This document shows, in pieces, positions 18,239-26,747 of a DNA stretch of 35,116 bases. Each line of letters starts with the position of its first letter. Positions within the stretch are counted from its first letter, which is position 1. Source of the DNA: Candidatus Endomicrobiellum cubanum (GTDB taxonomy: Bacteria > Elusimicrobiota > Endomicrobiia > Endomicrobiales > Endomicrobiaceae). Position numbers and translations under genes: made by a program. The notes beneath the pieces are model-generated. The model saw only the letters and a list, made by a program, of their open reading frames with translations, was not told where the DNA came from and did no database searches. Location of the stretch: NCBI GenBank assembly GCA_031269735.1, contig JAISYS010000045.1:1-35116 (forward strand), given 5' to 3'.

Positions 18239-19030
18239 ATGAATTTTAATTTCATAGTAACTTTTTTTTTGCCATTTTTTGCAGGGCTTATGTATTTTTT
18301 TATGGCACTACAAGTAAATCGCACAAGCAAATTTCGTTCTATAATGTTTGGAGAAATCGGATTTAGAAAACTTGAAACTGCCTTTATATTATTTGGCATT
18401 TACTTTATTACGCGACCTCTGCAAAATATTTTAGGGTCTCACCCTTGGTCTTTAATAGTTAATTGTACAAGACAGTTTTTTTTAATGGCAGTCATTTCGC
18501 CATCTATTCTTGTAGCTATTTTTCATTGGGTGCCAACACCAAGTGGAGCACCACATTCAAGTAAATTTGCAGCTTATACAATAGGCGTATTAATGGGGAC
18601 TATATTTTCTCTTATAAATAGCATTGCCGTAACAGAGTCGAAAATTATATCCGTATGGGGCAATATTACTATTTATGATTCTATATGGTTTCATTCTGTA
18701 TCTTCAATACAGCTTGTTTTAATACATTTAATTTGCCAGCTTGTTTCTCCTGTGGGGTTTTTACTTCTTGCTGCAGCTTATGTAAGGCATAGACGACATG
18801 ATTATAAGCTTACAGATGTTTATAATCTGATACCTACAAAATGGAGATATCTTGAAGCAAGTCTTATTATATTTGGATTTGCTTTTATTATAGCTGGAGT
18901 CGCAGCTATTGCAGGAACTTACTATACCTATCTTTGGACTATTTATTTTGTTGGTGCCATTATTTCTGGAATTTTTGTAATGAGAAGTATTAATCTTCCT
19001 CCTAGACAAGCGCCCAACGACTTGAAATAA
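18239..19030 (+). CDS. Polytopic inner-membrane protein of unknown function
   Basis: 263 residues, GGAG six bases before ATG 18239, 29 bases after folD. About seven hydrophobic spans are visible (roughly residues 5-23, 42-60, 74-96, 112-134, 148-176, 207-229, 232-250), with conserved-looking loops PTPSGAPHSSKF and RHRRHDYKLTD. The N-terminus is probably outside and most of the mass lies in the membrane. The seven-span layout resembles sensor-type membrane domains, but there is no attached signalling domain. Not recognised. Co-transcription with folD looks accidental. Confidence 0.72.
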   Translation: MNFNFIVTFFLPFFAGLMYFFMALQVNRTSKFRSIMFGEIGFRKLETAFILFGIYFITRPLQNILGSHPWSLIVNCTRQFFLMAVISPSILVAIFHWVPTPSGAPHSSKFAAYTIGVLMGTIFSLINSIAVTESKIISVWGNITIYDSIWFHSVSSIQLVLIHLICQLVSPVGFLLLAAAYVRHRRHDYKLTDVYNLIPTKWRYLEASLIIFGFAFIIAGVAAIAGTYYTYLWTIYFVGAIISGIFVMRSINLPPRQAPNDLK

Positions 19031-19050
19031 ATTTTTATTTTTACTATATA
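19022..19050 (+). promoter_or_regulatory. Sigma70-type promoter of the microprotein unit
   Basis: TTGAAA (19022-19027), a 17-base spacer and TATATA (19045-19050). It overlaps the stop codon of the membrane-protein gene and would start RNA near 19057, about 70 bases before the microprotein ATG. Confidence 0.65.
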
Positions 19051-19067
19051 TTATCTGTCTATTTTAG

Positions 19068-19113
19068 CTAAAGCGTTTTGTGCTTTAGGCGAAAAACAAG
19101 GGAATCTTTTCCC
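19068..19113 (+). promoter_or_regulatory. Two leader hairpins before the microprotein
   Basis: Hairpin 1: CTAAAGC (19068-19074) pairs with GCTTTAG (19082-19088), seven base loop. Hairpin 2: GGGAA (19100-19104) pairs with TTCCC (19109-19113), four-base loop, ending five bases before the Shine-Dalgarno region. They could stabilise the mRNA or gate translation. No known riboswitch class is matched. Confidence 0.5.
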
Positions 19114-19128
19114 AAAAAGGAGCCGAAT

Positions 19129-19245
19129 ATGGCTTGTGGATGCGGGTGCAAAACAAAAAAGTCAGCCGCTAAAAAAAAGGTTGTAAAGAAAGTAGCATCT
19201 AAAACTAAAACGACAAAAAAGAAAACGACTACGAAAAAAAAGTAA
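19129..19245 (+). CDS. 38-residue Cys/Lys-rich microprotein (CGCGC head, histone-H1-like tail)
   Basis: ATG 19129 with GGAG (19119-19122) six bases upstream. The product starts MACGCGCKTKKSAAKKK and continues as a Lys/Thr/Val/Ala-only tail ending TKKKTTTKKK. The head has three cysteines spaced C-x-C-x-C, suited to bind a metal ion or form disulfides; the tail resembles the basic, disordered C-terminal arm of histone H1-like or KTT-type nucleic-acid-binding proteins. It has its own promoter, structured leader and perfect terminator, so it is very likely expressed. A role in binding DNA/RNA or metals is inference. No family recognised. The low-complexity tail means chance database hits should be treated with care. 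Confidence 0.75.
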   Translation: MACGCGCKTKKSAAKKKVVKKVASKTKTTKKKTTTKKK

Positions 19246-19260
19246 AATAAAGAGTAAAAT

Positions 19261-19294
19261 AAAAAAACCATCTATATAATTAGATGGTTTTTTT
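19261..19294 (+). terminator. Rho-independent terminator after the microprotein
   Basis: Perfect 14-base arms (seven A plus CCATCTA, paired with TAGATGG plus seven T) with a six-base loop. The A/T arms make it usable on both strands, so it may also end transcription coming from serS/dnaE on the minus strand. Confidence 0.92.
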
Positions 19295-19301
19295 ATTTTA
19301 C

Positions 19302-25256: not shown

Positions 25257-26747
25257 ATGGGGAGATACATACATCAGTCTAAATTGAACAATGGAACAAC
25301 GAAAGTCAGAATTATTAGTAAAGAAGGGAGAAAAGTTGTAAAAGTCAAACATATAGGAACAGCACATAATGAAGAAGAATTAAAAACATTAATGTTTTTA
25401 GCACAGGATAGTTTAGAAGATCCTAGACAGGGGAAATTTAAAATATTTGAACCAGGTAAGTATTTACAGACAAAAATAATGCACAAAAAGTCATACTCAA
25501 AACTTTTATTTTACACTTTAGGGAAAGTTTATGATAAATTAGAGCTTAGTAAGATATTAGACAAAACATTTCGCGAACTTGTGATAACACGAATAATAGA
25601 ACCAACTTCAAAACTAGACAGTATAAGAGTACTAAAAGAGCTGGGATTAAAATCCCCTTCAAACACCACAATACATAGATGTTTAAAAAGAATAGTAACA
25701 TTGAGTTACAGCAAAAAAGTGGCAGGTATATTTATTAAATATGCAAAATTAAATAAAGCAGCATTGTTATTATATGATGTAACAACTCTCTATTTTGAAA
25801 TAGAAAAAGAAGACGAATATAGGAAAAGGGGGCTAAGTAAAGAAAGGAGACTAGAACCACAAATAATAGTTGGACTACTAGTTAATGAAAAAGGGTTTCC
25901 GCTTGCTATAAGTTCCTTTGAAGGCAATCAAGCAGAAACAAAAACAATAATACCTGTATTGAAAGAATTTAAGCGGAATTGCGGTATTAAAAATATAACT
26001 GTAGTATCTGATGCAGCAATGTTATCAGCAGAGAATTTAGATATACTAGAGGAAGACGGATTCAAATTTATAGTAGGGTCTAGACTAGCAAAAACACCAT
26101 ACGCAATAAAAGAATATCGAAAAGCAAAAGAGTCAGAAAAACTACCAGATGGACAAATATTTGATACTACTAAAGAATTTATAAATAAAATAACCAGAAA
26201 AATTGCTATTAGAAGAGTCATTTATCAATATAAGCAACAAAGGGCAAAGCTAGATTTATTAAACATACATAAGCAAATTAAAAAAGCACAAATGCAATTA
26301 TCTGATAATTCTATGATAAAAAAATCACGATTTTTAAAAATAGTACGTTCGCATAAAGAAATAAATCAGAAATTAATAAAAGAAGCAAAACTAAAAGCAG
26401 GAATAAAAGGGTACGTAACAAATTTAGATCTAGACGAGGAGGAAATAATTAAAGCGTATCATAATCTTTTTCAAGTAGAAAAATCGTTTAGAATGGCAAA
26501 GTCAGATTTAAAAGCAAGACCTATATTTCATCAAACTAGACATTCAATAGAAGCACATTTAACTATATGTTTTACTGCACTTGCAATTTCAAGATATATT
26601 CAAGATAGAACTAATACCAGCATAAAAAAATTTGTGCAAAGATTAAAGCCATTAAGAACGGTAGTTATATCTATTGGGTCTAAAGAATATACTGCAGAGC
26701 CAGAAATTGACCAAGAAATACAAAGATTATTAGATCTGCTAAATTAA
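25257..26747 (+). CDS. IS1634-type DDE transposase
   Basis: 496 residues, intact. The first ATG is at 25257. The sequence has the IS4-superfamily/IS1634 layout: N-terminal domain, then LLYDVTTLYFE (first catalytic Asp), IITVVSDAAML-like NITVVSDAAM (second Asp), a long insertion, and NLFQVEKSFRMAKSDLKARPIFH (catalytic Glu in the Y-x-x-x-x-x-x-E-x-x-F region) followed by a hydrophobic helix (LTICFTALAISRYI). It catalyses cut-and-paste transposition. Codon use and AT content match the neighbours. The open frame suggests a recent or active copy in an otherwise decaying region. Confidence 0.93.
   Translation: MGRYIHQSKLNNGTTKVRIISKEGRKVVKVKHIGTAHNEEELKTLMFLAQDSLEDPRQGKFKIFEPGKYLQTKIMHKKSYSKLLFYTLGKVYDKLELSKILDKTFRELVITRIIEPTSKLDSIRVLKELGLKSPSNTTIHRCLKRIVTLSYSKKVAGIFIKYAKLNKAALLLYDVTTLYFEIEKEDEYRKRGLSKERRLEPQIIVGLLVNEKGFPLAISSFEGNQAETKTIIPVLKEFKRNCGIKNITVVSDAAMLSAENLDILEEDGFKFIVGSRLAKTPYAIKEYRKAKESEKLPDGQIFDTTKEFINKITRKIAIRRVIYQYKQQRAKLDLLNIHKQIKKAQMQLSDNSMIKKSRFLKIVRSHKEINQKLIKEAKLKAGIKGYVTNLDLDEEEIIKAYHNLFQVEKSFRMAKSDLKARPIFHQTRHSIEAHLTICFTALAISRYIQDRTNTSIKKFVQRLKPLRTVVISIGSKEYTAEPEIDQEIQRLLDLLN
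25257..26747 (+). mobile_element. IS1634-type insertion sequence, ends unresolved
   Basis: The element must extend beyond the transposase on both sides (somewhere within 25154-25256 and 26748-26877), but I could not find convincing terminal inverted repeats or a target duplication by eye in these AT-rich flanks. Confidence 0.6.

Follow-up and report, generated by a model that had tools for sequence, protein, structure and literature searches.

The locus and its transcription unit

The window, that is, the whole stretch of 35,116 nucleotides analyzed here, comes from Candidatus Endomicrobiellum, a genus of Elusimicrobiota living in termite-gut flagellates (PMC11257099). It holds a 38-codon open reading frame, preceded by folD and a gene for a 263-residue hydrophobic protein and followed by the convergent serS gene. 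The product, MACGCGCKTKKSAAKKKVVKKVASKTKTTKKKTTTKKK, has 38 residues, of which the first seven form a head with three cysteines arranged as CxCxC, and carries a net charge of +16 without any Arg, Asp, Glu or His. An earlier note on this DNA described the tail as consisting entirely of Lys, Thr, Val and Ala; these residues are indeed its main constituents, together with two Ser. AlphaFold returns a helix at low confidence (mean pLDDT 64, pTM 0.26). Taken together with its recurrence in relatives, the sequence indicates that this lysine-rich microprotein is a real, previously uncatalogued protein of termite-gut Endomicrobia. The features of the locus are collected in Table 1.

Table 1. Coordinates of the microprotein gene and its flanking signals in the window.
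Feature	Position	Strand	Basis
Probable -10 element, TATATT	19047..19052	+	TATAAT at the equivalent place in relatives; window copy lacks a convincing -35
Leader hairpin 1, CTAAAGCG-TTTTG-TGCTTTAG, 8 pairs, one of them G-U	19068..19088	+	Folding; hairpin in 36/36 leaders, with changing arms
Leader hairpin 2, GGGAA-TCTT-TTCCC, 5 pairs, just 5' of the Shine-Dalgarno sequence	19100..19113	+	Folding; 35/36 leaders
Shine-Dalgarno sequence, AAGGAG	19117..19122	+	AAAGGAG invariant across the leader alignment
ORF of 38 codons, Cys-Gly-Cys/lysine-rich microprotein	19129..19245	+	Translation and conservation in relatives
Terminator, perfect 21-bp palindrome, bidirectional, probably common to convergent serS	19254..19301	.	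Arms 19254-19274/19281-19301

The leader hairpins, Shine-Dalgarno sequence, ORF and terminator bear out the proposal of the earlier note that the gene forms a self-contained transcription unit, with the promoter as its weakest element. A consensus scan of the window returned no promoter on the forward strand. Among the relatives, the best -10 element matches at least five of six bases in 33 of 36 cases (window copy counted) and reads exactly TATAAT in 21 of 36, counts that come from a best-of search in AT-rich DNA. The terminator palindrome spans 21 bp, more than the 14-bp stem first described, and is flanked by T-runs on both strands, so that it probably ends serS as well. Because the next gene is serS, convergent and behind the terminator, with no co-directional gene 3' that could be regulated, a leader peptide or attenuator was excluded.

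Compared with dinucleotide shuffles, the fold of the transcript starting at 19057 is better by 5.2 SD, and for the 62 bases 5' of the Shine-Dalgarno sequence the mean folding z across 34 leaders is -2.48. Leader conservation, whose absence would have counted against the earlier note, is seen for both hairpins (Table 1). The second keeps its pairing through the arm variants GGGAA/TTCCC, AGGAA/TTCCT, TGGAAAT/GTTTCCA, GGGAC/GTCCC and TGCC/GGCA. When arms are swapped between relatives, complementarity drops from 0.92 to 0.49 for hairpin 1 and from 1.00 to 0.59 for hairpin 2, a contrast that is partly built in since the arms were picked by folding. The structural assignment combines single-sequence folds against shuffles with the arm-swap test; RNAalifold found no structure in the MAFFT alignment of the leaders, as hairpins of unequal length misalign. 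At the gathering score, an Rfam search of the window returned only tRNA, with sub-threshold chance matches mostly on the terminator.

The leader is also specific to this gene. The hairpin-2 and Shine-Dalgarno pattern GGGA-N-TTCCC-N-AAAGGAG has 19 matches in the 42 genomes of the genus, every one at the microprotein gene (control 0). In four other genera it takes a GCC-NNNN-GGC version, which no genome has more than once and which also lies at the microprotein gene. In another Elusimicrobiota family (L205-L213), rplL, encoding L7/L12, lies behind a leader of similar design, a G+C hairpin followed by AAAA and GGAG; this arrangement was read in nine genomes, in one of which Pfam confirmed it. By analogy with this leader, we infer that the hairpin leader would provide a high-output start of translation, not a specific switch. 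The compact cassette would also fit the abundant small mRNA suggested in the earlier note.

Two other genes of the window were recorded. The 263-residue hydrophobic neighbor (18239-19030) is found in 58 of 77 Endomicrobiaceae genomes, covering all 14 genera, and matches no Pfam or NCBIfam family; like the microprotein, it decays in the reduced genomes G065, G019 and G011. Positions 25257-26747 hold an intact-looking 496-residue ORF with a DDE transposase domain.

Conservation, variation and loss across Endomicrobiaceae

A protein search placed the microprotein in other Candidatus Endomicrobiellum genomes. A profile search for related loci returned nothing, whereas a DNA pattern of Shine-Dalgarno sequence plus MACGC recovered copies. 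The pattern AAGGAG-N(3-10)-MA(C/Y)GC gave 33 forward matches in 32 of the 77 Endomicrobiaceae genomes, which are mostly metagenome-assembled, against 0 in the reversed control. Pattern searches miss divergent heads, some of which are recovered by synteny; once heads beyond the pattern are counted, namely MACGSGC (G017), MACC (G301, G307) and Cys-less forms (G315, G310, G299), the carriers number 38 of 77, among them three whose tails are frayed. For 12 independent pairs taken together, pS is 0.27 and pN is 0.067, giving a pooled pN/pS of 0.25, with noisy single-pair values of which two exceed 1. Two checks suggested by the earlier note, recurrence of the ORF in relatives and an excess of synonymous over non-synonymous change, therefore came out in its favor, and the substitution pattern indicates that the microprotein is under purifying selection. 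A chance low-complexity ORF is ruled out by the pattern matches against an empty control, the genus-wide leader and Shine-Dalgarno matches, and the pN/pS value.

One genome, G025, carries two copies of the cassette (C8:2263-2346 and C16:36691-36786), each beside its own copy of the 263-residue gene, which reflects either duplication or a mixed bin. Other ORFs of the family's genomes that start with lysines were set aside as members: those beginning MAPKK are ribosomal protein L11 by eye, and one of 9 codons sits in an apparent tmRNA.

The members range from 22 to 51 residues and share a Lys/Ala/Val/Thr/Pro composition with almost no Arg or acidic residues. Net charge in all those compared lies between +10 and +23 and is provided by Lys, which makes up 31-56% of residues, with a single Arg across the whole set. 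Repeats include KKAAPKKKVAAKK, KKPVAKKPVAKK and KKPVAKKPVAKKK. The microprotein thus has the composition of a histone H1 tail, being low-complexity, rich in Lys, Ala, Pro and Val, and highly positive.

Where cysteines are present, the head takes the forms CGC, CGCGC, CGSGC, YGCEC or CC. It occurs in Endomicrobium and Endomicrobiellum and is kept in most members of that sub-clade, which argues that it has a function there. Orthologues without any cysteine occupy the syntenic place after the 263-residue gene in genera g28 (G315, MAAKKKVVKKKAAPKKKAAAKKKKK) and g21 (G299, MPTKKKPAVKKAVKKVAKKPVAKKPVAKKK), while in genus g24 (G310) a Cys-less form, MAAKKKAAKKPVKKAAVKKAAPKKKK, lies on a different contig with its own Shine-Dalgarno sequence and terminator. 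In a tree of the neighbor gene, g21, g24 and g28 form a supported group with g26 (95/93), and genera g29-g32 form a separate group in which no microprotein copy was seen wherever the locus was inspected. The orthologues that lack Cys yet share the locus or the kind of cassette suggest that the Lys/Ala/Pro/Val tail is the constant part of the protein and the Cys-Gly-Cys head a clade-specific, variable one, either gained once or lost once.

Presence of the gene follows genome size. Within Endomicrobiellum, the median estimated genome size is 1.32 Mb for the 22 genomes with an intact copy and 0.95 Mb for the 20 without (Mann-Whitney p = 4e-5, with lineages that are not independent); the sizes are estimates that combine rounded assembly size with completeness, and some absences may be assembly gaps. 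Stages of decay are visible as well: a hairpin-1-like stretch persists without an ORF in G065, a 1.1-Mb genome in four contigs, start and head are mutated in G007, and tails are frayed in G063, G011 and G019. HU-family genes are found in 37 of the 42 genus genomes, G065 and G007 included. Judging from these assemblies, the smallest Endomicrobiellum genomes have lost the microprotein or carry it in decayed form, with HU usually kept, and its loss while HU is retained suggests that it is accessory. Since the family runs from a free-living genome, probably a cultured one, through intermediate symbionts to highly reduced ones with a decaying gene, the role of accessory chromatin proteins during genome reduction becomes directly testable.

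Possible functions of the microprotein

We consider it probable (roughly 0.58) that the microprotein is a well-expressed, free-standing, histone-H1-tail-like polycation that binds nucleic acid, mainly DNA. Its presumably disordered chain would attach to the chromosome by non-specific charge contacts and act as an accessory to HU; RNA or polyphosphate are less likely targets. The leader hairpins would stabilize the short mRNA and leave its ribosome-binding site accessible, yielding much protein. A thiol function may be added in Endomicrobium and Endomicrobiellum by the N-terminal Cys pair, which would bind metal or join two chains through disulfides and so tune this activity without creating it. 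Several lines of evidence favor this reading: the conservation, the purifying selection and the Lys-based charge of every member compared; the Cys-less orthologues that keep tail and cassette (G315 and G299 at the locus, G310 elsewhere); the repeats, along with scores below threshold against HC2 and H1-like profiles; the gene-specific leader design resembling that of L7/L12 elsewhere in Elusimicrobiota; the presence of HU-family genes; and the loss of the microprotein from the smallest genomes. In addition, the H1-like tail of AlgP, which is of such composition and has been compared with the tail of histone H1, binds DNA (PMC9239181). Against it stand profile scores that are far below the cut-offs and come from the longest relative only, 22-residue members that are small for chromatin proteins, the low-confidence helix as sole structural prediction, and a Cys head whose upkeep in most of its sub-clade points to a function that the tail model does not cover. 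Composition and conservation support the nucleic-acid-type tail proposed in the earlier note, and it is from these that we infer an H1-tail-like working mode; such a likeness is distinct from family membership.

The joint function put forward there, a metal-binding head with a nucleic-acid tail, is not supported as stated, given the orthologues without any Cys. In a rival reading as a metal- or redox-handling microprotein, an N-terminal Ala-Cys-Gly-Cys, exposed upon Met removal, would ligate Zn, Ni, Cu or Fe-S through its thiolates, with the Lys tail as a mere tether to nucleic acid. Cys-Gly-Cys is a metal-ligand motif, for instance in the A-cluster of acetyl-CoA synthase, and nearly every member of the sub-clade with Cys heads retains a Cys pair; however, a head that is variable and partly absent argues against metal binding as the core function, two Cys alone without His make a weak site, and no metal-related gene lies among the neighbors, so we regard this reading as unlikely. 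A metallothionein-like protein would have a Cys or Cys/His cluster in all members, whereas this family has Cys-less orthologues and otherwise two or three Cys. It is also unlikely that the Cys-Gly-Cys head is a thiol switch whose thiolates bind metal or pair as disulfides, dimerizing H1-tail chains and coupling chromosome compaction to the metal or redox state; if true, the symbiont lineage would have a minimal, switchable bacterial chromatin protein of fewer than 40 residues. Small basic ribosomal proteins are similar to the microprotein in size and charge, and its leader is like that of L7/L12, but a small ribosomal accessory or RNA chaperone instead of a chromosome protein also seems unlikely: unlike ribosomal proteins, the microprotein is missing from part of Endomicrobiaceae and lost in reduced genomes, its repeats are of the H1-tail type, and a solved-structure search with a relative gave no match.

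Other readings are less probable still. Lys-only tails would suit a polycation that binds polyphosphate or organizes its granules, and AlgP, with its KPAA/KPVA tail, associates with polyphosphate granules (PMC9239181); because AlgP has a separate folded domain and the main Endomicrobia paper makes no mention of polyphosphate, we hold this role to be distinctly improbable. The strong structure, small size and genome-unique leader could also mark a dual-function or regulatory RNA in which structured leader and terminator outweigh the peptide. Selection at the protein level (pooled pN/pS 0.25), arm sequences that vary unlike an antisense seed, and the lack of an Rfam match make this very improbable. 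Least probable of all is a secreted cationic antimicrobial peptide or effector: the product is cationic and Cys-containing and its bearers are host-associated, but it has no signal or leader peptide, no adjoining exporter or immunity gene was recognized, and the gene is present in G304, the single-contig 1.6-Mb genome of a probable free-living isolate, and lost in the smallest symbiont genomes.

Mobile-element origins were set aside as well. The MACGC matches on viral contigs are other proteins, and no plasmid match was found; a role in anti-phage defense found no PADLOC match. On the viral contigs, the short MACGC-headed proteins of L092, L094, L096, L097 and L099-L103 have a CDGSH-like motif, for which Pfam zf-CDGSH gives an E of 0.0018, short of the cut-off, and L093, L095 and L098 encode a 36-residue Cys-rich, metallothionein-like protein.

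Comparison with known systems

Searches of Pfam, NCBIfam, PHROGs and Rfam gave no family match at threshold, in agreement with the earlier statement that no named family covers the protein, and we found nothing in the literature on such a protein in Endomicrobia. In a scan of approximately 85,000 genomes for a Shine-Dalgarno sequence followed by MACGC, Endomicrobiaceae and two Omnitrophota genomes were the sole sources of comparable Lys-rich products; matches elsewhere, one of 16 codons and some of 11, look like chance. The Omnitrophota ORFs, at L059 (4540-4632, MACGCKKTKKKVAKKTVKKAVKKVAKKKKR) and L085 (6521-6580, MACGCCGKKKKAKKKSKKK), share the MACGC head, Lys richness, strong Shine-Dalgarno sequence and a terminator-like hairpin, whereas no comparable two-hairpin leader was seen. 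A search of 384 Omnitrophota genomes added no carrier beyond G341, one of the two already found, and the likeness may reflect shared ancestry, transfer or convergence.

Among characterized proteins, the chlamydial Hc2/HctB (PF07382) resembles the microprotein in its Lys/Ala/Val-rich low-complexity repeats, a length that varies by repeats, and the absence of an apparent folded domain. Hc2, at 165-237 residues (PMC2848022), is much longer than the 22-51 residues seen here and has no Cys head. The window protein does not match PF07382, and the longest relative scores 12 bits (E 0.23) against a cut-off of 40. The Burkholderia-type H1-like model NF038053 is similar to the tail in composition but much longer, at 195 positions; again the window protein has no match, and the longest relative reaches 13.5 bits (E 0.065) against a cut-off of 80.

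The tails of AlgP and PhaF in Pseudomonas are of the KPAA/KPVA type, and the G299 form described above (MPTKKKPAVKKAVKKVAKKPVAKKPVAKKK) is of the same kind. AlgP, however, has 352 residues with a helical N-terminal domain, and the 38 residues of the microprotein do not hold a folded N-terminal domain joined to a KPAA tail; the microprotein corresponds to the tail alone or to the tail with a Cys head. The case also shows that current family libraries overlook genes as small and as biased in composition as this one, and many annotations probably do too. Set beside these systems, the family would add to bacteria a class of H1-tail-like protein that is uncatalogued, very short and free-standing, with a Cys head in part of its members.
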